A stretch of DNA of 64,000 nucleotides, taken from Armatimonadota bacterium (GTDB lineage Bacteria > Sysuimicrobiota > Sysuimicrobiia > Sysuimicrobiales > Kaftiobacteriaceae). Positions 29,589 to 40,630 of the stretch are shown piece after piece. Under the pieces are notes generated by a model. It saw only the letters and a program-made list of their open reading frames with translations. It searched no databases and had not been told where the DNA came from. The stretch covers positions 1-64,000 of the forward strand of contig JAVKHY010000009.1 of the NCBI GenBank assembly GCA_031459765.1, given 5' to 3'. Within the stretch, counting starts at the first letter, position 1, and the number at the start of each line of letters is the position of its first letter. The position numbers were made by a program, and so were the translations under genes.

Positions 29589-30566
29589 TTACTTCACGAC
29601 CCTCACCCGTCTCCAGTCGATCGTGGCCACGCTCATCCCCAGAGCGATGAGGCCGAAGGTCACCATCTGAATATCGCGGCCCAGGGCAAGCATGAGCATC
29701 CCCGCCTGCATCCAGGTGATGATGATCGTCCCGATCAGCGTCCGGTGCGGCCCCCCCATGCCCCCGGTCAGGGCGGTGCCCCCCGCCACGACGCTGGCGA
29801 AGAGCGGGATGGGCATGTCGGCCCCAATCTGCATCGAGCCGCCCCCGAGCTGCGCCATGTACAAAACTCCGGCCAGCCCGGCGAGACAGCTGCTCAGCAT
29901 GAACACCTGGATGCGCTGCCTGGGCACATCGATCCCGGAGAGCCCGGCGGCGACGGGGTTCCCCCCGATGGCATAGACGCGCCGGCCGAAGGGGGTGAGC
30001 AGGGCCAGGAAGGTGCTGAGGACCCACACGCCCAGGGCCCAGTAGAAGATCGCCGGCAGCCCCGCGAAAAAGGTCGTGGCCAGGGCGCGGAAGGTCTCGT
30101 CCCGCACGATGTGCAGGAAGCCGCGGGAGAGAAAGAGCCCGATCCCCTCCAGCACTACGGACACGCCCAGCGTGGCCATGAACGAGGGCACATTGTAGCG
30201 GGCGAAGAGCACCCCGTTGACGAAACCCGACACCGCGCTCACGAGCAGGGCCAGCGGGACGACCCACAGCCCGAGACGGTCCAGGTACAGGGCACAGATC
30301 AGCGCGGCGAGCTTCAGGACGCTGACCACGGAGAAGTCGAAGGACCCCATGACGATGACGAAGGTCAGCCCGCAGGCGGCAATCAGGAAGTAGGACATGG
30401 CGTAGACGCAGGTCAGGAATCCCTGATAGGTCAGAAAGGAGGGGTTGATCGCCTGGAAGGCGACGATCGTCAGGATGGCCGCCCCGATCGGCCCGATGGT
30501 GGTCATCCGGTGGCGAAACCGCTCCCGGGAGGACGTCAGGCTGGCCACGGCGCCCGTGCTCCTCAC
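29589..30566 (-). CDS. Ribose-type sugar ABC transporter permease (system 2, second permease)
   Basis: A 325-residue RbsC-like membrane protein. ACGLTFVIVMGSFDFSVVSVLKLA is the conserved helix region, with GSFDFSV in place of the more usual GIDLSVG. AIGGNPVAAGLSGIDVPRQRI is the cytoplasmic coupling loop. The start is GTG 30566, overlapping the first permease stop (GTGA). With the preceding gene it should form a heterodimeric channel, unlike system 1, which has a single permease. Confidence 0.88.
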   Translation of the reverse strand: MRSTGAVASLTSSRERFRHRMTTIGPIGAAILTIVAFQAINPSFLTYQGFLTCVYAMSYFLIAACGLTFVIVMGSFDFSVVSVLKLAALICALYLDRLGLWVVPLALLVSAVSGFVNGVLFARYNVPSFMATLGVSVVLEGIGLFLSRGFLHIVRDETFRALATTFFAGLPAIFYWALGVWVLSTFLALLTPFGRRVYAIGGNPVAAGLSGIDVPRQRIQVFMLSSCLAGLAGVLYMAQLGGGSMQIGADMPIPLFASVVAGGTALTGGMGGPHRTLIGTIIITWMQAGMLMLALGRDIQMVTFGLIALGMSVATIDWRRVRVVK

Positions 30567-31507
30567 GTCACCGTGACCCCCCGCAGCCCGCGGCTGCCGA
30601 CGACAATAGAAATGATCAGCAGGAGTCCCAGGAGGAGCTGCACGAGCTCCGGGCGCAGCAGGGAGAGGATCAGACCGCGATCGACGACGGCAAAGGTCAG
30701 CGCCCCGAGGATCGTCCGCTGGGGCCCGCCGCTCCCGCCGACCAGCGGGGTCCCCCCCAGGACGATCGCCACGAGCGGCCAGACCACGTTGTTCAGGTTG
30801 AGCTCCACCGGCGTGGCGCCGCCGAGGTGCTGGAAGAGAATCATCGCCCCGAACCCTGTGAAGGCGCCGCTCAAGGTGAACCCCAGAATCTTGTAGCGAT
30901 CGACGTCCACGCCGGCCAGGCGCGCCCCTTCTTCGTTGGACCCGATCGCGTAGAGGTAGATGCCCACCTTCGTGCGTGTCATGATGAAGACCGCCGCGAC
31001 GATGAGCGGAATCGCCCAGAGCAGCGGCGTAGGCACCAGCGGGATGAGCGGCGCCGTGATGAACTCATAGCCCCGGACCGACCGCGGATACCCTCCGGAA
31101 AGCCTCGCCGTCAGGCCCCAGTAGGTCACCAGCAGGCTCAGGGTGAGGATGAAGGAGGGCACCTTGGCCTTCACCTGAATCACGCCGACGATGAACCCGC
31201 TGGTCAGCCCCAGAAGCAGGATCACCAGGATCGCGGCCGCGCCCAGGACGGGCTTCAGGAGCCACACCAGCACGCCCCCCAGCATCCAGATCCCGACATA
31301 GGTGAGGTCCAGGGCGCCGGTGACGACCATGAGGGACGGGCCGAGGGCGAACAGCATGAGCGTGACAAACTGCCTGAGGATGGTGGAGATGTTCAGCCCG
31401 CTCAGGAACCGGTCCGGATAGAGGAGGGAAAAGACCAGCACGAAACCCACCAGGGCCAGCACAGCCGGCAGATTGCTCGGGGCGCGGCCGCCGCGCCGGA
31501 CCGTCAG
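30563..31507 (-). CDS. Ribose-type sugar ABC transporter permease (system 2, first permease)
   Basis: A roughly 314-residue RbsC-like permease. The first membrane segment is LPAVLALVGFVLVFSLLYP, MVVTGALDLTYVGIWMLGG is the conserved region and AIGSNEEGARLAGVDVDRYKI the coupling loop. No ATG is available near the expected N-terminus. A CTG at 31507 overlaps the ATPase stop as CTGA, copying the ATGA/GTGA overlaps seen across this locus, and gives a normal N-terminus LTVRRGGRAPSNLPAVL. Alternatives are GTG 31612, deep inside the ATPase gene, or GTG 31462, which would trim the first helix. The start is therefore uncertain, the gene is not. Confidence 0.85.
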   Translation of the reverse strand: MTVRRGGRAPSNLPAVLALVGFVLVFSLLYPDRFLSGLNISTILRQFVTLMLFALGPSLMVVTGALDLTYVGIWMLGGVLVWLLKPVLGAAAILVILLLGLTSGFIVGVIQVKAKVPSFILTLSLLVTYWGLTARLSGGYPRSVRGYEFITAPLIPLVPTPLLWAIPLIVAAVFIMTRTKVGIYLYAIGSNEEGARLAGVDVDRYKILGFTLSGAFTGFGAMILFQHLGGATPVELNLNNVVWPLVAIVLGGTPLVGGSGGPQRTILGALTFAVVDRGLILSLLRPELVQLLLGLLLIISIVVGSRGLRGVTVT

Positions 31508-33060
31508 TGTCCGCCCGCCGGGGGTCTGCGGAGCGTCGTCATCTCCGCGAACTCCCCGGGGGTGAGGGCGCGCTGCACCCGGCCGTCCCTGATCAGGAGG
31601 ATGGTGTCGCACAGCGTGGCGTACTCCTTCGGATCATCACTGACCAGCAGCATCGCCGTGCCCTGCCTCTTCATCTCCCCGAAGATCTCGTAGATATCGG
31701 CCCGGGCCCCCACGTCGATGCCGATGGTCGGATCCTCGAGCAGGAGGATCTCAGGGCTCCGCTCCAGCCACTTCCCCACGGACACCTTCTGCTTGCTCCC
31801 GCCGCTCAGGGAGTAGCAATCCGTGTTCACGCTGGGGGTCCTGATGCGGAGCTTCCGGACGACCCTTTCGGCCATCGCCCGCTCGGCCTGGAGACGGATC
31901 ACAGGCAGACGCTTCCCGACGATCCTGGCGATGTTCAAAATGGAAATATTCTGCGCCACCGGCCAGTTAAGAAACAGCTCCTTCCCGGTCTCCCCGGAGA
32001 AGTACCCCACCCCCCGTGCCAGGCGCAGGTGGGGCGGTTCGTCAGCCCTGACCCGCCGGCCCTTGATGGTGAGGGATCCCGCGTCGAAGGGGGACAACCC
32101 GGCAATGGTGGCCACGATCTCGCTCTTGCCCGATCCCGCCGGTCCGAAGAGGCCCAGGCACTCGCCCCGGCGCAGGGCGAAGGAGACGTCGTAGTAGGCT
32201 CCGCGTTTCGTCAGCCCCTCGGCGGCCAGGACGACGGCCTCGTCCACGACGCGCCGTGCCCCCCAGGCCGGGGCGAACTCGGCGGCCTCCCGGCCGACGA
32301 TGGCCCGGAACAACTCCTCCTCGGTGATCTTCTCTTCGGACAGATCGAAGTGGGCGACCAGCCGGCCGTCCCGTAGCACATAGACTCTGTCCGCAAACTC
32401 CATCACCTCGGGAATGACGTGCGAGACAAAGATGAAGGAGGCCGTGCTCTTCATCGCCAGGAGGTCGCGGAAGAGTTCCCGGCGCTCCTCCAGCGTGAGG
32501 GGCGCTGTGGGCTCGTCGAGAATAATCACCGGCGGCACGGTGAGATCGTTGCAGGCCAGTCGCACGCTCAGCATCGCCCTCGCGATCTCGACCATCTTCT
32601 GGGTGGAGGCCGGGAGTTCGTACATCACATCTTCGGCCGTGCAGGGGACGTGCAGCTCGTCCAGCATCGCCTGCGCCTGCCGCTTCATCGCCTCGAGCCG
32701 CAGTCCCGTCAGGGCCGTGTAGCGGTCCTCCTGGCCGAGGAGGAGAAACTGGTAGACCGGCAACAGGGGAATGACGCCCTTTTCCTGATAGACGATGGAA
32801 ATTCCCCGGCGCGCCGCCTCCGTAGGGTTTCGAGGAAAGGGCACGCGGGAGCCCCGATACCACAGCTCTCCCGTGTCAGGGGCGTAGGCCCCGACCAAAA
32901 TCTTCATCAGGGTCGACTTGCCGGCGCCGTTCTCCCCGACCACCCCGACAATCTCACGGGGGCGGACGGCCAGGCCGACGTTCTCCAGGGCGCACACTAC
33001 GGTATCGAAGGTCTTGGAGACACCGGCAACCTCGAGCACCGGCGGCTGCATCGGGATCAC
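31504..33060 (-). CDS. Sugar ABC transporter ATPase with two NBDs (system 2)
   Basis: A 518-residue tandem ATPase. NBD1 has an intact Walker A (GENGAGKST) and Walker B (VIILDEPTAPLT), but its signature is LPASTQKMVEIARAM rather than LSxGQ. NBD2 has Walker A GPAGSGKSE and signature YSLSGGSKQKVSVGKWL, but its Walker B reads ILLLEDPTIGID, with the usual Asp-Glu order swapped. Site 1 (NBD1 Walkers with NBD2 signature) is therefore canonical and site 2 degenerate. GTG 33060 is taken as start, with ATG 33051 as alternative. It drives the two-permease importer downstream. Confidence 0.9.
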   Translation of the reverse strand: MIPMQPPVLEVAGVSKTFDTVVCALENVGLAVRPREIVGVVGENGAGKSTLMKILVGAYAPDTGELWYRGSRVPFPRNPTEAARRGISIVYQEKGVIPLLPVYQFLLLGQEDRYTALTGLRLEAMKRQAQAMLDELHVPCTAEDVMYELPASTQKMVEIARAMLSVRLACNDLTVPPVIILDEPTAPLTLEERRELFRDLLAMKSTASFIFVSHVIPEVMEFADRVYVLRDGRLVAHFDLSEEKITEEELFRAIVGREAAEFAPAWGARRVVDEAVVLAAEGLTKRGAYYDVSFALRRGECLGLFGPAGSGKSEIVATIAGLSPFDAGSLTIKGRRVRADEPPHLRLARGVGYFSGETGKELFLNWPVAQNISILNIARIVGKRLPVIRLQAERAMAERVVRKLRIRTPSVNTDCYSLSGGSKQKVSVGKWLERSPEILLLEDPTIGIDVGARADIYEIFGEMKRQGTAMLLVSDDPKEYATLCDTILLIRDGRVQRALTPGEFAEMTTLRRPPAGGH

Positions 33061-33070
33061 TCGAACTCGG

Positions 33071-33101
33071 GCGGTGGCCGGCGGTCAACGCCGGCCACCG
33101 C
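33071..33101 (-). terminator. Perfect 13-bp hairpin after the system 2 binding-protein gene
   Basis: The arms GCGGTGGCCGGCG (33071-33083) and CGCCGGCCACCGC (33089-33101) pair perfectly around GTCAA. It lies between the binding-protein stop at 33129 and the ATPase start at 33060. It has no U-tract, like the hairpins at 11346 and 27061, and is more likely an mRNA-stabilising or partial-termination element than a full terminator. Confidence 0.72.
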
Positions 33102-33128
33102 GAGAGGATCGGCGGGACCCACCGGCGG

Positions 33129-34568
33129 CTACACCCAGACCGGCTCCGTCTTCAGCTCCGGAGGGAACCCCTTGGCGTATTCCTGCGCCTGTTCCCAGGT
33201 GTCCGCCCAGCGGAAGTCGAGGAAGTGCTTGTGCAGCGCGGCGACATGCTTCTTCAGAGCCTGAATGCTGCCGAACTTCCTGAGCTTGGCCGGGAAGTAA
33301 TAGTCATGCTGCCCCAGATGCGTGCCGCCGCCGGCATGGCGGTCGTAGGCCAGACCGAGCTCCTGGCACTTCGAGAGCGAGAGACGCCGAAAGTCATAGG
33401 GGTAGTTGGGCGTCTTCGCCTTCATCTGCTTGAGAATCTTCTCCAGATTCTCCGCGGTCGGGCCCAGCTTGAAGTTCGGATGGTAAATCAGCCGCGCCCC
33501 CCTGGCCAGCTCCTCGATCTCTCCAGGCCGCCCGTAGCAGTCGATCCGACCGGCCTGCACCATCTCATCCTTCAGCGGATACCAGGCGCCCACACACATG
33601 TCGTAGAGCATGGGGACCATGCGCCCGCCAAAGTAGGGGATGGCAAACCCGGCGGTCACCAGGAAGTTGCCCTTCAGGATGGCCTCCGCCGTGGTCATCT
33701 CCATATCCCGGGAAGCGGTGTAGGGGCCCAGCTTCAGGCCGCGGTCTTCGCACGCCTTCAGGGCGCCCATGGTCTGGGAATCGTTGGCGCCCCACAACGC
33801 CTCGTAGTCGGTCCGGATGGCCAGCGACGCTTCGGCCGCCTTGCGGCCCCCCTCGTAGTTCCACTCCCCGTATTGGTGACCGAGAACCTGCATCTCGGGA
33901 TAGAACTGCCAGGCCTGGAAGACGCCGAGGTTGATATAGACGGTGGAGCAGGTGGCCACCGTCTTGTGCGCCTGATGGTGCAGCAGTTTCCGCTTCCCGT
34001 TCCGCCGCATCTTTTCGAACAGCAGCATCAGGGGGAGGAACGTCTGCTCGTCGGAGAGCGGCGTGTTGTCGACGACCCATCGCGGGCCGAGGTCGCCCGG
34101 GAAGATGTCCCCGGTGTAGCCGAAGTGGGTGGCCATGAACACATTGCGTTCGTTGCAGATCTTGGTCAGCGCGGGCATGATGGCCGCCGAGGGGCAGTTG
34201 TAGATGATCGCCTTGGCCCCGGCGGCGATCATGCTCTCGGTGGTCTGGATCCAGGCCGCATCGGACTCGGCCACCGCGCCGGCGAACTTCAGGCCGAGCT
34301 GCCGGCAGGCCTGCTCGCTGGCCTGGTAGCACATCATCAGGTACTCCTGGGCCAACCCCCAGGTGATGTGCCCGATGGTGAACCGTTCGCCGGGTTTGGC
34401 GTTCTGATACTGGCGGGCGAGTTTGCGCCTCTCGTCAGCAGCCGCGGCGGCTTCCGCCTTTGTCGGTGTCGGGACGAAGGATCGGGCGTAGGTCCCCGCC
34501 CACAGCCCCATGCCGGTCAGTGCCGCGCCGCGAACGAATTCGCGGCGGGTCAACCCGCTTGTGCCCAT
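33129..34568 (-). CDS. Tat-exported sugar-binding protein (system 2)
   Basis: A 479-residue secreted protein. The N-terminus MGTSGLTRREFVRGAALTGMG contains a twin-arginine motif (TRREFV) followed by a hydrophobic stretch, so export in folded form by Tat is expected. The mature part looks like a type I binding protein: RFTIGHITWGLAQEYLMMCY, AKAIIYNCPSAAIMPALTKI and YEALWGANDSQTMGALKAC. It is longer than the usual 320-380 residues; the extra sequence is mainly C-terminal and ends in a charged, aromatic tail. ATG 34568 opens directly on the Tat signal. A candidate GntR operator lies about 85 bp upstream. The ligand is unknown. Confidence 0.85.
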   Translation of the reverse strand: MGTSGLTRREFVRGAALTGMGLWAGTYARSFVPTPTKAEAAAAADERRKLARQYQNAKPGERFTIGHITWGLAQEYLMMCYQASEQACRQLGLKFAGAVAESDAAWIQTTESMIAAGAKAIIYNCPSAAIMPALTKICNERNVFMATHFGYTGDIFPGDLGPRWVVDNTPLSDEQTFLPLMLLFEKMRRNGKRKLLHHQAHKTVATCSTVYINLGVFQAWQFYPEMQVLGHQYGEWNYEGGRKAAEASLAIRTDYEALWGANDSQTMGALKACEDRGLKLGPYTASRDMEMTTAEAILKGNFLVTAGFAIPYFGGRMVPMLYDMCVGAWYPLKDEMVQAGRIDCYGRPGEIEELARGARLIYHPNFKLGPTAENLEKILKQMKAKTPNYPYDFRRLSLSKCQELGLAYDRHAGGGTHLGQHDYYFPAKLRKFGSIQALKKHVAALHKHFLDFRWADTWEQAQEYAKGFPPELKTEPVWV

Positions 34569-34650
34569 CTTCTCCCCCCTCCTCGTCTGGGCGTCGCTCT
34601 GAATCCGCTCATGGGCCACTGGCCGCGCACCGTTTCCCGGCGCGCGGCTA

Positions 34651-34680
34651 ATGTACGGACATCTTGTCATCCGTCCGACA
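34651..34680. promoter_or_regulatory. Candidate GntR operator, copy 2
   Basis: A 30-bp block matching 28348-28377 at 27 of 30 positions, with inverted arms CGGAC (34656-34660) and GTCCG (34673-34677), 12 bp apart. It sits 83 bp before the binding-protein ATG, in the leader of the whole 19-kb run. The same spacing and orientation in both copies support a shared regulator, most simply the GntR protein encoded at 22949-23719. Confidence 0.65.
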
Positions 34681-34878: not shown

Positions 34879-35463
34879 TCAGGCCGCCTTGCGATGCTCG
34901 ATCCGGGTGCCGAGTGCCTCCAGGAACCTGGCCAGCCACGCGGGATGGGCCGGCCAGGCCGGGGCGGTGATCAGCATCTCGTCCGCCACCGCCTGATCCA
35001 CCGGCACATCGACCCACGTCGCGCCCGCCAGCTTCACCTCCGGGCCGACGGCGGAGTAGCCGGTGCACCGTCTGCCCCGCAGGACGTCCGCCGCCGCCAG
35101 CACCTGCACGCCGTGGCAGATGGCGGCGATGGGCTTGCCGACTTGCGCGAAGTGCCGGACAATCTCCAGGACCCGCGGCTGCAGGCGGATGTACTCGGGC
35201 GCCCGCCCGCCGGGGATGACCAGGCCGTCATAGTCGGTCTCCCGGATCTCGTCGAAGGTCGCGTTGAGGGTGAAGTTATGGCCGCGCTTTTCGCTGTAGG
35301 TCTGATCCCCTTCGAAGTCGTGCACCGCCGTCCGCACCGCCTCGCCCTGCTTCTTGCCCGGACAGGCGGCGTGGACCGTATGGCCGACCATCTGCAGGGC
35401 CTGGAACGGGACCATCACCTCGTAGTCCTCGACGTAGTCCCCCACGAGCATCAGGATCTTCAT
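34879..35463 (-). CDS. DJ-1/PfpI-family protein
   Basis: A 194-residue member of the DJ-1/PfpI superfamily. [19 protein letters not shown] carries the conserved glutamate near residue 12-15, [13 protein letters not shown] follows, and [14 protein letters not shown] is the nucleophile elbow with Cys followed by His. Family members act as glyoxalase-like deglycases, intracellular peptidases or chaperones, and the activity here is unknown. ATG 35463 shares a base with the stop of the preceding unknown gene, so it is the last gene of the ArsA-pair cluster and is probably co-translated with it. Confidence 0.85.
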
Positions 35464-35993
35464 TACCCACCCTCCTTTCCGACTTCTCGCCCTGACTCAC
35501 CGTCAGCGACGTGGCATTCCAGGTTGCCGAAGGCCTCCATGAGCGCCCGGAGCTCCCCGTCCCCAAGAGATCCGGAGAGCTCCACCTGCACGGTGCGCCG
35601 GGTCCGGTCGCAGTAGCACTGCAGCCGGGCCGCCGGCACCAACCGGCGGAAGACGATCCCTTCGCGCCGCCGGCCGCACTGAAACTGGGCCGTGTGCCCA
35701 CCGGCCGGCATGGCTCCGGCCGTCGTCACCTCGGCCAGCGGCGCCCTCATGGGGCGCAGGCGGCCCGGGCTGATGCGGACCACGAGATCCGCCCGGATCC
35801 CCCGCAGGCGATCCACCACCACATGACGCGTCTCCCCGGCCGCCACCCACTGCCGCCCCCCCTGGCGCAGGGTCGTCTGCACGTCGGGGGCGACGGTGGC
35901 GCGGGTAATGGCCCAGGGCTCGGGCAGGATGAAGGCGACGAAAGCCGCCGCCCCCGTGATCGGATTGAAGGCTTCCAGGGTTCTCTTCGCCAG
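35463..35993 (-). CDS. Unknown protein of the ArsA-pair cluster
   Basis: About 176 residues, not recognised. The body is predicted to be mixed strand and helix with no signal peptide. The middle reads [20 protein letters not shown] and then [20 protein letters not shown], with a CYC pair, and ends in a helix [14 protein letters not shown]. It could bind metal or a lipid, but that is speculation. No ATG or GTG lies near the natural start. CTG at 35993 has GGAGG 7 nt upstream, and another CTG at 36014 overlaps the ATPase stop (CTGA). Its position between an ArsA-type ATPase and a DJ-1 protein, with a stop-start overlap downstream, argues it is real. Confidence 0.6.
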
Positions 35994-36010
35994 CGCGGCG
36001 CCTCCGCAAC

Positions 36011-37024
36011 TCAGGCGAACAGCACCTGCGCCACACGCTCCAGGACCGGCACACCGCGGACCTCCGTCTCGAAGAGCGGGACGACGGCGCGCACCATGCC
36101 GGGGAAGGCCCGGGCGATCTCCTCGCGGTAGGCCTCCTGCGCGATGACCCGGTTGAGGACGAACTGCGGCGTGGTCTCCGTGACCAGGCCGCGCTCGATG
36201 ACCCCGTTGACGATGACCCCGCCGACGGGAATGCCGAACTCGTGGAACCAGGAGATGAACCGTCTGATCACCGCGATGGGCAGTGCCTCCGGCAGGGTGA
36301 CGAAGAAGAACGCCGTCAGCGCGCTGTCGGTGAGCAGCCGCCGGGCGGCCTCGATGCGATCGCGAAACCGCAGCAGGTAATCCAGCAGCGGATCGGCCTC
36401 GTCCTTCTTGCTGTAGGAGAGGAGGCGGCGCAGGGAGCGCGCCTCCTCGCGACTGCGCACCATCTTCTGCACCCACATCGCGTACACGGCGGACATCCCC
36501 AGCAGCCGCCGGGCGTTGGCGGTCGGCGCCGTATCGAAGACGTACACCTCGTACTCGTCGCGGAAGATGATGTCGATCATGCTCTCGAACATCGCCGATT
36601 CCTCGAAGGCCGGGTTCATCGTGGCCGACTCGACAAAGGCGTCGGCTCTGGTGCGGATCTCAGCATATTTGAGGAACCAGTCGATCTTCTCTTTGATCTC
36701 CCGCTTCGATCGCTCGATGGTCTCCCGCGTGTCGATCTCGTGCGCCCACAGCGACGGCACGCCGGCCACCGGCGTGGCGCGGCCGAACACATCCTGGTCC
36801 AGCAGGCCGCTCAGACTGTGCACCGGATTGGTGGAGACCAGCAGGACGCGGCGGCCCTGGCGGGCCAGGGCCAGGGCCGCCGCGCCGGCCATCACGGTCT
36901 TGCCGACCCCGCCCTTGCCGCCGAAATAGAGGTATTTCAATGTGGGCATCGCGTCGACGACCTGACGCATCGACCGCTCCACCAGGGCCTCCCAGCCGGC
37001 CGGTCTAGTCAGTTGCTGGACCAC
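36011..37024 (-). CDS. ArsA/Get3-family ATPase, subunit with Asn in switch I
   Basis: A 337-residue ATPase with deviant Walker A FGGKGGVGKT at 34-43. Switch I reads STNPVHSLSG, where ArsA/Get3 proteins have STDPAHxLSD; the hydrolytic Asp (D57 in yeast Get3) is Asn here and the last Asp is Gly. Switch II (VFDTAPTANARRLL) keeps DTAP but has AN for the usual GH. It should bind ATP but hydrolyse it poorly. GTG 37024 is chosen because GGAGGG lies 7 nt upstream; it overlaps the partner gene by 20 nt. It aligns along its length with that partner, suggesting a heterodimer. Confidence 0.88.
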   Translation of the reverse strand: MVQQLTRPAGWEALVERSMRQVVDAMPTLKYLYFGGKGGVGKTVMAGAAALALARQGRRVLLVSTNPVHSLSGLLDQDVFGRATPVAGVPSLWAHEIDTRETIERSKREIKEKIDWFLKYAEIRTRADAFVESATMNPAFEESAMFESMIDIIFRDEYEVYVFDTAPTANARRLLGMSAVYAMWVQKMVRSREEARSLRRLLSYSKKDEADPLLDYLLRFRDRIEAARRLLTDSALTAFFFVTLPEALPIAVIRRFISWFHEFGIPVGGVIVNGVIERGLVTETTPQFVLNRVIAQEAYREEIARAFPGMVRAVVPLFETEVRGVPVLERVAQVLFA

Positions 37025-38024
37025 GCCCGTTCCCTCCAAACATGGCGTCGGCCATCCGCTCGATCATCGCCAGGCCGGTCACGTCCCGCTCGAACTCAGG
37101 GACGTAGGCCAGGACCTCCCCCCCGAACAGCGTACGGATCTCCTCCAGGTGGCCCCGCTGCATCTGCAGGCGGCGACGCAGGTACTCGGGGATGTCCTGC
37201 TGGGCCAGGGTTTCGGGCAGGACGCGGTTCACGATGTACCCGCTGATCGGCACCTGGAACTTGGCGAACAGCTGGGCGGCCTTCCGTGTATCCAACAGGG
37301 CCATCTCCTCGGGGATGATGACAAAGAAGAAGGCGGTGCGGGCGGCATCGGTCAGGATACTGCTGCTGATGGTGATGCGCCGGCGGATGTCCTGCAGCTC
37401 GGCCAGGATCAGATCTTCTTGGAGCTGCTCCCCCTTCATCCGCGCCGCCATCTCCGCGTACTGCTGCATCTCTTCCCGCAGCCGGGTGATGCGCTCGATC
37501 CACTCGTCGTAGACGCTGGCCATGCTCAGGTAGTAGAGGGCGTGGCCGAGGGGCACCAGATCGTAGATGAAGTAGTCGTACCCCCCGGTCACGACGATAT
37601 CCACCACCTGGTCGAAGATCGCGCTCTCCTCCATGGCCGGTTCGGCCGACGCCGCCGCGATGTAGTGCTCGATCTCCTCCGGCACGCGGTCGAACCCGTA
37701 CATGTCGAGGATCTTCTGGCGGATCTCCTGCTGGTAGGCGCGGATCCGCTGGTCGGCGTCGATCTCCTGGGCAAACAACCCCGGCACGATCTCCACGGGG
37801 CCCCGGCCGAAGATGTCGCGCTGGAAGATATCGGACAGCGACGCCTGGGGGTCCACGGAGAACACCAGTACCTTGTATCCCCGGCGCGCCAGATGGTAGG
37901 CGGTGGCCGCGGAGAAGGTCGTCTTCCCCAGCCCGCCCTTGCCGCCGAACATGATGTATCGGCGGTCGGGGAAGTCCGTGAAGTATCGCGCCAGCCGGCT
38001 GCCCGCCGGCTCAGGAGAGGGCAT
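37005..38024 (-). CDS. ArsA/Get3-family ATPase, subunit with intact switch I
   Basis: A 339-residue ATPase with deviant Walker A FGGKGGLGKTT at 26-36 and an intact switch I, FSVDPQASLSD. Switch II reads IYDLVPLGHALYYL, keeping Asp and GH but replacing the DTAP core. The region after it (SAIFDQVVDIV) aligns with the partner ATPase. It has no CxxC or arsenite-binding cysteine triad, so arsenite pumping is unlikely. Get3-like targeting of membrane proteins, as proposed for tandem bacterial ArsA pairs such as mycobacterial Rv3679-Rv3680, is a better model. ATG 38024 follows GGAGAAGGA, and the start overlaps the 93-residue gene by 14 nt. Confidence 0.9.
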   Translation of the reverse strand: MPSPEPAGSRLARYFTDFPDRRYIMFGGKGGLGKTTFSAATAYHLARRGYKVLVFSVDPQASLSDIFQRDIFGRGPVEIVPGLFAQEIDADQRIRAYQQEIRQKILDMYGFDRVPEEIEHYIAAASAEPAMEESAIFDQVVDIVVTGGYDYFIYDLVPLGHALYYLSMASVYDEWIERITRLREEMQQYAEMAARMKGEQLQEDLILAELQDIRRRITISSSILTDAARTAFFFVIIPEEMALLDTRKAAQLFAKFQVPISGYIVNRVLPETLAQQDIPEYLRRRLQMQRGHLEEIRTLFGGEVLAYVPEFERDVTGLAMIERMADAMFGGNGRGPATD

Positions 38025-38292
38025 CGGTCAGATCCTTCTCCCGGAGCATGCTGCGCTTCCAGGTAGAGATCTGGGGGACGACATAGGGCAGCAGCCGCAG
38101 CGAGTAGTAGGGGGGCAGGATCGGCACGCCCAGCAGATCCCCCATGGTGATGAGAATGAAGAGGTGCTCCATGCTGCCGCGGGTCTTGAGGGCGTGCCGC
38201 GTCATCTCGTGGGCTGCCATGCCGTAGACGAAATCCTTGAGGCTGCGCCTCGCCCGCTCCAGGAACGCCGGCTTCTCGTCAGGATGCTTCAT
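38011..38292 (-). CDS. Small unknown protein of the ArsA-pair cluster
   Basis: A 93-residue protein not recognised as a known family. The first 40 residues are charged and helical (KPAFLERARRSLKDFVYGMAA), the middle is hydrophobic (MEHLFILITMGDLLGVPILP) and a proline/tyrosine-rich stretch PPYYSLRLLPYVVPQI follows. It could be a membrane-associated substrate or adaptor of the ATPases. It overlaps both neighbours, the upstream thioredoxin-like gene by 4 nt and the ATPase by 14 nt, which supports co-expression. No cysteine is present. Confidence 0.65.
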   Translation of the reverse strand: MKHPDEKPAFLERARRSLKDFVYGMAAHEMTRHALKTRGSMEHLFILITMGDLLGVPILPPYYSLRLLPYVVPQISTWKRSMLREKDLTDALS

Positions 38293-38771
38293 GTCTTGTC
38301 TCCTGTGCCGCTCCGCTTGGCCCGCAGGCGCTGCTGGATACGCTCAACCAGCAGGTGCTCCTCCCAGCCCGTGATGCGTTCGCGCCCGTCCAGAAGGAAC
38401 GTCGGATAGCGGCGGATCCGGTGGCGCAGGGACGCCATGAACCAGTGGAGGGAGGGCGGGGCGACAATGCGGATGACGACGCTCCGGCCGAACCGCTGCT
38501 GGATGGCATGCAGCAGGGCCCACAGCCGCCGATACTCCTCCCGCATCGCCGGCGGATACCGCCGGACCTCGTCCCGGTGCACCGTCCGCCCCACCCCGAC
38601 GAGGTCGATCGCCGACCCCTCACGCATCAGGGTCAGGCCCGAGGCGAGGAGGATGGGAGCGAAAACCTCGACACGGACAGGCGGCGGCGGAGCAGGCGGC
38701 GGCTCCGGCCACTCCGTCGGGCCGGCTCCCGCCACCGGGCGAATCCGGACGACCTTCCGGCGATGCGGCAA
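38289..38771 (-). CDS. Cysteine-free thioredoxin-fold-like protein of the ArsA-pair cluster
   Basis: About 160 residues. After a proline-rich linker comes a strand VRVEVFAPILLASGLTLM. A later block, FGRSVVIRIVAPPSLHWFMA then RRYPTFLLDGRERITGWEEH, resembles the cis-Pro strand of thioredoxins, but the CxxC is absent. ArsD-like metallochaperones share this fold, yet their cysteines are also missing. TTG at 38771 is preferred: GAGGAA lies 6-7 nt upstream and it follows the cstA terminator hairpin. ATG 38849 would place the hairpin inside the gene. It is the first gene of the cluster. Confidence 0.6.
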   Translation of the reverse strand: MPHRRKVVRIRPVAGAGPTEWPEPPPAPPPPVRVEVFAPILLASGLTLMREGSAIDLVGVGRTVHRDEVRRYPPAMREEYRRLWALLHAIQQRFGRSVVIRIVAPPSLHWFMASLRHRIRRYPTFLLDGRERITGWEEHLLVERIQQRLRAKRSGTGDKT

Positions 38772-38854: not shown

Positions 38855-40630
38855 CTAGCCGGCGGGCGCCCGGCGGAGGGAGACCACCGCCTTCGAGAAC
38901 GACCGCACCCCGTCCAGGGCCAGCACCACCGCCAGAATGACCAGCGCAAAGGCGATGATCGCCGCCACCAGATTGCCGAAGACAAAGGCCGCGGCCAGGC
39001 CGGGCTTGAACGCCGCCTGCAGACTGACCCACCCCGTGACCAGGAGGGCGGCCACGGTCGTGATGTACATGAACGCCGCCGGATAGGCCACCCACCGGTA
39101 CGTCTTCCCCTGGTTGGCCAGCCAGATCGACACCAGCATCAGCGCCAGCCCGGCGAAGAGCTGGTTGGAGCCGCCGAACAGGATCCAGATGCGCGCCCAG
39201 AATCCGGTCCACAGGATGAGCAGGGTGAACAGAATCCCCACGATCGATCCGAAATGGGGGTTGCGGAACGCGGGGAAGCGCTCGCCGACCAGCTCGGCGC
39301 TGGCCACCCGCATGAAGCGCAGCACCAGCTGCATCACGGTCAGGGCCATGATGCACAGGAAGATGGAGCCGAACGCCGCGCCGAAGGAGGTGGAGATGCC
39401 GAGAACGTTGAGGAACTTGGCCATCCCGCCGGCGAACACCGCCCCGCCGCCGCGGGCCAGTACTTCCTTGTACCCGGCGAAACTGCCGAAGCCGGCCACG
39501 GCGAAGGTGAGGGCCAGCACGGCCAGCACGGCCTCGGTGTACATGGCCCCGGCCGTAACCGGCAGCGTGTCGGTCTCCTTCTCCAGCTGGCGCGACGTGC
39601 CGGAGGTCGTGACCAGGCTGTGCCAGCCGGAGATGGCTCCGCAGGCAATGGTCACGAACAGGATCGGCCACAGCGGGGTGGCCACCCCGGGCGCCAGGAC
39701 GCCGACGGCGTTGAACCCGGTGAAGGCGGGGAAGTCGCCGAACCCCGGCCAGCTGATCAGAATCCCGACGATCGACCCCACGATGCCCACGATGACCAGC
39801 CAGAAGGATACGTAGTTCACGGGCTGGGCGAAGCGCCAGATCGGCAGCACCGAGCCCAGGTAGCAGAAGACCAGGGCCAGGATGCCCCAGATCCACACGC
39901 CCCAGGTCATGGGGCCGTAGGGGGTCATGTAAAAGACGTTCTTCACCTCTTTATCGGCGATCACCACCGTGGAGCCGGCCAGCCCGTTGAACCACTCCAC
40001 GATGCGGCTGAGCGGACCAGTCTGCCCCAGCCAGACGCCGACGAAGGCGATCACCACCGTGACGATGGTCGTCGTGACCAGGTCCCGCTTCAGGCGGTAG
40101 GTCATGTGCCCGGCCAGCACGCCGGCCAGGGTGACGATGATGAAGCCGATGGGCACTTTGGGATTCGCCATCAGCCCGGCCACGATGGACCCGAAGGCGC
40201 CCATGATGAGCAGCAGGTAGAAGTACAGGAAGGACAGGAGGATGTTGCGCGCGCGGGGCGAGATCAACTTGTAGCTCAGCCCGCCCATGGTCAGCCCCTC
40301 GTGGCGCATGGCCATCATGGCGGAGGAGTAATCCTGGACCCAGCCGATGAACAGCACCCCCAGGATCAGCCAGAGCAGGGCCGGGAGCCATCCCCACTGC
40401 GCCGCCACGATGGGACCGACGATCGGCCCCAGGGCGGCGATGGATTTGAACTGGTAGCCGAACAGCACGCTACCCGATGCGGGCATGAAATCCACGCCGT
40501 CCTGGTACAGCCGGGCCGGCGTCGCGCGATGGGGGTCTGGCTGCAGGACCAGCCGGTCCATGCGGGCGGCATAGAGCCGGTAGCCCAGCCAGACAATAAT
40601 AATGGTGGCAACCAGCATCAGGGCTGCCAT
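38855..40630 (-). CDS. cstA: Carbon starvation protein A (peptide/pyruvate transporter family)
   Basis: A 591-residue polytopic membrane protein with many hydrophobic segments. The N-terminal PASGSVLFGYQFKSIAALGP and GWVQDYSSAMMAMRHEGLTM blocks are strongly conserved in CstA. LILWTGFWARIWILFGGSNQ and LAVLALTFAVAGFGSFAGY are also typical. The family imports peptides, and some members import pyruvate. It is monocistronic, with a divergent nitroreductase gene. ATG 40630 gives a full first helix. Confidence 0.92.
   Translation of the reverse strand: MAALMLVATIIIVWLGYRLYAARMDRLVLQPDPHRATPARLYQDGVDFMPASGSVLFGYQFKSIAALGPIVGPIVAAQWGWLPALLWLILGVLFIGWVQDYSSAMMAMRHEGLTMGGLSYKLISPRARNILLSFLYFYLLLIMGAFGSIVAGLMANPKVPIGFIIVTLAGVLAGHMTYRLKRDLVTTTIVTVVIAFVGVWLGQTGPLSRIVEWFNGLAGSTVVIADKEVKNVFYMTPYGPMTWGVWIWGILALVFCYLGSVLPIWRFAQPVNYVSFWLVIVGIVGSIVGILISWPGFGDFPAFTGFNAVGVLAPGVATPLWPILFVTIACGAISGWHSLVTTSGTSRQLEKETDTLPVTAGAMYTEAVLAVLALTFAVAGFGSFAGYKEVLARGGGAVFAGGMAKFLNVLGISTSFGAAFGSIFLCIMALTVMQLVLRFMRVASAELVGERFPAFRNPHFGSIVGILFTLLILWTGFWARIWILFGGSNQLFAGLALMLVSIWLANQGKTYRWVAYPAAFMYITTVAALLVTGWVSLQAAFKPGLAAAFVFGNLVAAIIAFALVILAVVLALDGVRSFSKAVVSLRRAPAG

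Follow-up and report, generated by a model that had tools for sequence, protein, structure and literature searches.

A conserved switch I asparagine in one of two paired ArsA/Get3-family ATPases of a CstA-CstX gene module

Results

Gene organization of the locus

The window analysed in this study is a stretch of 64,000 nucleotides from an Armatimonadota bacterium genome (assembly GCA_031459765.1, contig JAVKHY010000009.1). On its minus strand the genes for CstA, a thioredoxin-like protein, a CstX-like protein, subunit B and subunit A follow each other in this order, and the reading frames overlap all the way from the thioredoxin-like gene to A, the overlap between B and A being 35 nt. The features are listed below in the direction of transcription.

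38855..40630, minus strand: CstA, transporter of the carbon starvation protein family (PF02554, 376 bits)
38289..38690, minus strand: thioredoxin-like small protein, start uncertain (homologues in module loci; weak fold assignment)
38011..38292, minus strand: CstX-like small protein of 93 aa, distant member of NF041419 'cory-CC-star' (profile, 32.6 bits)
37005..38024, minus strand: subunit B (Asp subunit), ArsA/Get3-family ATPase of 339 aa (PF02374, TIGR00345)
37938..37940, minus strand: Lys29, signature lysine in the P-loop of B (Lys in 101/101 B proteins)
37851..37853, minus strand: Asp58 of B, the hydrolytic Asp kept, in switch I SVDPQASLSD (Asp in 101/101 B orthologues)
37539..37562, minus strand: switch II of B, DLVPLGHA, Asp155-Ala162 (Asp, Pro, Gly and His each 105/105)
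36011..37039, minus strand: subunit A (Asn subunit), ArsA/Get3-family ATPase of 342 aa (PF02374, TIGR00345, AlphaFold2/Foldseek)
36914..36916, minus strand: Lys42, signature lysine in the deviant P-loop of A (Lys in 108/108 A proteins)
36827..36829, minus strand: codon AAT, Asn71 of A, in switch I, at the position of yeast Get3 Asp57
36512..36535, minus strand: switch II of A, DTAPTANA, Asp169-Ala176, with Gly-His replaced by Ala-Asn
35463..36008, minus strand: open reading frame of about 181 aa immediately following A, with a hydrophobic stretch near its N-terminus

Both ATPase reading frames were found at 36011-38024, where the first-pass annotation had placed them, and the AAT to which it had drawn attention is indeed codon 71 of A when read on the minus strand. 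Two start codons are conceivable for A (TTG at 37039, or an in-frame GTG just downstream), and the motifs are unaffected by this choice.

For the open reading frame downstream of A, no Pfam match was found; similar frames, distant homologues of it, lie near the pairs of loci L005, L018, L027, L033 and L047, and it is a candidate for Castillo and Saier's CstY. Next in line is a gene of the DJ-1/PfpI family (34879-35463, 163.5 bits), for which no similar stretch was found in the pair loci searched. Further along, 29589-34670 on the minus strand encodes, as judged from the translations alone, a probable sugar-type ABC uptake system consisting of two permeases, a double ATP-binding protein and a binding protein with a Tat-like signal.

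A and B as members of the TRC40/GET3/ArsA family

Both proteins are full-length ATPases of this family. The score against PF02374 was 205.1 bits for A and 226.6 bits for B (cut-off 24.3), that against TIGR00345 was 207.4 and 223.2 bits, respectively (cut-off 135), and both proteins carry the deviant P-loop GKGGxGK(T/S) of the family. The catalytic switch I Asp, which marks the active members of the family but which the profiles do not require, was looked for in every subunit; it is present in B and missing from A. The AlphaFold2 model of A (pLDDT 84.5, pTM 0.81) has the Get3 fold, with Get3 of M. jannaschii (3ug6) as the top Foldseek match (E 6e-25). No ArsA-family gene above the family cut-off was found in the genome besides A and B, and viral contigs yielded no relatives.

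The pair has the fold and all the motifs in common with archaeal and yeast Get3/TRC40. Because the nearest solved structures are those of Get3, and CstX has been described as a small protein with a single TMS (PMC2963123), the pair could be taken for a targeting chaperone like Get3, whose clients would be small hydrophobic membrane proteins, perhaps including CstX, and whose asymmetry would serve their release. We consider this improbable, since Get3, a homodimer, has a zinc clasp of the CxxC type and a hydrophobic insert that binds clients, and both are lacking here: the CxxC zinc motif of the dimer interface was found in 0/108 A and 0/105 B proteins, and where TRC40 has its Met-rich insert the sequence is polar, with a mean best 15-residue hydropathy of -0.40 in A and -0.27 in B against +0.39 for the same region of M. 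jannaschii Get3. A second possibility, that the pair represents the arsenite-pump ATPase ArsA split over two genes, was suggested by the common family and by a two-site layout resembling the two halves of ArsA. It was dropped as extremely improbable on score (102 and 96 bits for TIGR04291, cut-off 650), on cysteines (ArsA has two domains and conserved cysteines that bind metal, whereas the present proteins are single-domain and hold a mean of 0.6 per A and 0.4 per B protein, with none in the window pair) and on neighbours, which include CstA and not ArsB, ArsD or ArsR; arsenic genes are likewise absent from CstA operons according to Castillo and Saier (PMC2963123).

Conservation of Asn at the hydrolytic position of A

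Relatives were collected from GTDB genome contigs, from the class of the window, and by sampling the phyla to which five genomes belong, namely a Thermoflexus (Chloroflexota, 301 genomes), a Pyrobaculum (250), a Methanoperedens (197), a Hakubella (247) and a Desulfobacterales (247). In a single alignment covering Bacteria and Archaea, the switch I residue is Asn in 108/108 A proteins, the counts for A, B and other members being of distinct sequences, many of them akin, and not of 108 independent events. The same column holds Asp in 101/101 of the B proteins that extend over it and in 119/119 other members of the TRC40/GET3/ArsA family. The motifs of the window pair are STNPVHSLSG and DTAPTANA for A, and SVDPQASLSD and IYDLVPLGHA for B. 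Asn71 of A aligns with Asp63 of STDPAHS in Methanocaldococcus Get3 (3ug6), and as the Asp of yeast DPAHN is residue 57, the earlier assignment of this Asn to the hydrolytic Asp position of Get3 was right. The retention of switch I DPQASLSD by B was likewise borne out at Asp58. Orthologues of A carrying Asp, which the first-pass annotation had named beforehand as evidence against its reading, numbered 0/108, so that the Asn is conserved and the asymmetry of the pair is far more general than is visible from the one window.

The switch I Asp brings the attacking water into alignment (PMC10248533), and its replacement in yeast Get3 D57N gives an ATPase-deficient protein that binds ATP without hydrolysis (PMC12506534), a laboratory version of what A carries naturally. 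From the comparison of the window with its closest relative (G005), dN/dS was 0.19 for A and 0.18 for B; this equal purifying selection indicates that A is not a decaying copy. Chance, sequencing error or a pseudogene as the origin of Asn71 is ruled out by the 108/108 conservation together with the dN/dS of 0.19.

Other active-site positions

The signature and Walker lysines of the P-loop are present in 108/108 A and 101/101 B proteins, and the C-terminal Asn conserved across the family (Asn274 in M. jannaschii Get3) in 107/107 and 105/105, respectively. The second switch I Asp (Asp70 in M. jannaschii Get3) is replaced by G, S, N or T in A, and is Asp in 101/101 B proteins. In switch II, B keeps Asp155, Pro158, Gly160 and His161 (105/105 each) and has changed at the T, A and T positions, while A keeps the Asp and the Ala two residues on (both 108/108), has Ala for Gly in 108/108, and has Asn for His in 103 and His in 5; the T/P/T positions of A differ by lineage. 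The proposal that each subunit keeps the part the other lost thus holds for the Gly-His of switch II, but it was overstated for the catalytic core because the switch II Asp is retained by both A and B.

Given that the second Asp of switch I and the Gly of switch II are both gone in 108/108 A proteins, the site of A seems to have been freed from catalysis and kept for binding. If A were nevertheless a normal ATPase, with Asn71 or another residue activating the water and both sites live, its P-loop and switch II Asp, intact in 108/108, would be accounted for, and there are family members with a different residue at the switch I Asp, such as NosGet3d with Glu (PMC10248533) and BagA Rv3679, likewise with Glu (VEVEGRQ). 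Asn could in principle still position water slowly. The ATPase deficiency of yeast D57N (PMC12506534) and the two further losses in every A protein make such a live A site unlikely.

Pairing and descent of the two subunits

Of 124 loci, 119 have B as the gene immediately upstream of A and on its strand; the other five are cut at contig ends, giving 119/119 for the uncut loci. The spacing, measured between the matched domains, is mostly a gap or an overlap of less than 40 bases. In a careful maximum-likelihood tree built after removal of the switch columns, A forms one clade (100/99), B another (100/100), and a further branch sets A and B together apart from the rest of the tree (100/99). Distances within A mirror those within B (r = 0.95 for 17 loci, with 0/2000 permutations as high), and sister clades with mirrored trees point to one old duplication. 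The switch II types also go in pairs: DTAPTANA with DLVPLGHA in 77, D(T/M/C)AAVANA with DMPPFGHG in 21, and DTAPVAHT with DMMPHGHA in 5, lineage-matched in 103/103 pairs, although shared descent alone could yield this match; a species history common to both genes accounts in part for the mirrored trees and for the pairing of switch II types.

One-to-one adjacency, mirrored trees and lineage-matched switch II fit a direct pairing of A with B better than separate homodimers. In that arrangement B would work as a usual ATPase, and A, with ATP bound but not hydrolysed, would be a partner or regulator in contact with B by way of CstX or CstA alone. Homodimers do prevail among the solved structures of the Get3 family, and single-gene CstX operons presumably use a homodimer as well. 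In a homodimer of A, however, neither site would be live, and A nonetheless retains the signature lysine that acts across the dimer; we therefore regard separate homodimers as an unlikely arrangement.

The CstA-CstX module and loci with a single ArsA gene

The pair belongs to a CstA-(thioredoxin-like)-CstX-B-A module. CstA homologues adjoin the pair in other loci, and a CstX homologue is present in the great majority of the pair loci surveyed. With a score of 32.6 bits, the CstX of the window is below the curated cut-off of 80 for NF041419 and aligns with members above it; size and position suggest that NF041419 corresponds to the CstX described by Castillo and Saier. Single-domain ArsA homologues thus occur here with CstA and CstX, the combination that marks CstA-CstX-ArsA operons. 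Profile search found no relative of CstX in the PDB, and its AlphaFold2 model (pLDDT 63) is unreliable.

The thioredoxin-like protein carries the C-terminal thioredoxin-like motif YPTFxxxGxxxxxG. Its homologues are encoded in loci L023, L025, L036, L037, L040, L041 and L045, and several of them have a CxxCE near the N-terminus that is lost in the window protein. The match to a thioredoxin fold is weak (Thioredoxin_3, E 0.042, for one homologue).

In Bacilli, Gammaproteobacteria and others, CstA-CstX is accompanied by one ArsA gene, which offers a single-gene version, presumably homodimeric, for comparison. The ArsA gene retains the switch I Asp in all 28 loci that combine CstX with just one ArsA; CstA, too, is present in nearly all of them. 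CstX ends in Cys-Cys in 27/28 of these loci (L052-L098) and in 0/44 copies from pair loci (L021-L049), and two CstX copies are present in 16/28 pair loci with CstX, the window having one. The contrast in the Cys-Cys end and in copy number indicates that the duplicated ATPase accompanies a changed, often duplicated CstX.

Discussion

Comparison with known systems

Castillo and Saier described in 2010 CstA-CstX-ArsA operons with single-domain ArsA homologues of about 330 aa and a small CstX (PMC2963123), the operon type to which the module of the window belongs. In the same study adjacent ArsA pairs were recorded in two organisms, Par and Sth (in our reading Pyrobaculum arsenaticum and Symbiobacterium thermophilum). 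Among single-domain proteins, N was noted as the only replacement for the D of the SXD motif, and ArsA was proposed to energise CstA with CstX as the link (PMC2963123). The two subunit types were not separated there, and Asn was not tied to one of them; here the Asn belongs to the downstream gene in 108/108. The text of PMC2963123 makes no mention of a heterodimer, and no later paper on such a heterodimer was found in the open-licence literature. The operons and an occasional Asn have been on record since 2010; a universal asymmetry and a heterodimer were not part of that account.

The mycobacterial BagA/BagB (Rv3679/Rv3680, PDB 6bs3-6bs5) resemble the present pair in being adjacent ArsA/Get3 paralogues that both have altered active-site motifs, and chains A and B of 6bs3, which are Rv3679 and Rv3680, provide a heterodimeric precedent in the PDB. 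The two pairs are distinct: A and B score only 47-56 bits against the BagA profile (NF053622, cut-off 400) and 32-37 bits against that of BagB (NF053621, cut-off 521). In the PDB sequences and in those of orthologues, the switch I Asp is Glu in BagA, and the signature lysine is missing from BagB, which reads GAGG there; the present pair keeps both lysines and has changed Asp to Asn. In the Actinomycetota sample (L252-L263), BagA orthologues show Glu at the switch I Asp (VEVEGRQ and similar), and BagB orthologues show GAGG, GSGG or GPGG at the signature lysine. BagA/BagB is a second, independent route to asymmetry within the same family. Outside the family, heterodimeric ABC exporters have one consensus and one degenerate nucleotide site, as reviewed in PMC7756269; their two-site working is similar, but they belong to an unrelated class of ATPase and serve as an analogy only.

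A probable heterodimer with unequal sites

An obligate heterodimer with unequal sites is favoured by several findings taken together: the strict adjacency of the genes, their origin in one duplication, the mirrored trees, purifying selection of equal strength on A and B, and the retention of Asp in the single-ArsA loci. The first-pass annotation had also expected a heterodimer with two unequal nucleotide sites; this part is supported, but the sites are predicted to be one good site, that of B completed by the lysine of A, and one that only binds ATP, not two halves of a single site. We consider it probable that A and B are obligate partners in a Get3/ArsA-type heterodimer in which hydrolysis takes place at B only, and that this dimer acts on CstA via CstX.

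Two ATP molecules are bound at the dimer interface of Get3/ArsA, with each subunit's signature lysine reaching across in trans to the ATP of its partner. Since both A and B keep the P-loop and this trans-acting lysine, the simplest reading is a heterodimer with two ATP bound and one hydrolysed at B, and the prediction follows that the B site is live and the A site binds without hydrolysis. In the cycle proposed from sequence comparison, the B:A dimer would bind two ATP. The B site would be complete, with its own Asp58 and switch II Asp155 and with Lys42 supplied in trans from A. At the A site, made up with Lys29 from B and its own Asn71, ATP would be held without turnover, as in the engineered yeast D57N. 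A would then be a standing ATP clamp and a lysine donor to B, with one hydrolysis per cycle, and such a lopsided motor would act on the CstA transporter through the CstX encoded next to it. The part of CstX as a link to CstA is suggested by gene neighbourhood, both here and in PMC2963123.

On a wider scale, the pairs may represent an old and widespread natural heterodimer of the D57N type, in which one ATP is clamped and the other drives CstA via CstX. One of the two sites would then have lost its activity a single time, earlier than the separation or spread of the family's archaeal and bacterial lineages, and would not have regained it since. This we offer tentatively, as a serious possibility rather than the probable case.

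The need for two ATP sites in Get3/ArsA has been hard to test, because natural homodimers are not changeable on one side. The pair is a natural one-sided mutant, fixed in every member, and it stands beside single-gene systems of the same operon type that have both sites and occur in other phyla. The main value lies in the complete conservation of Asn in one member of an old pair, and not in the single Asn of the window. Two kinds of CstA-CstX-ArsA operon become distinguishable by sequence alone, and these poorly understood operons gain a concrete, testable motor.
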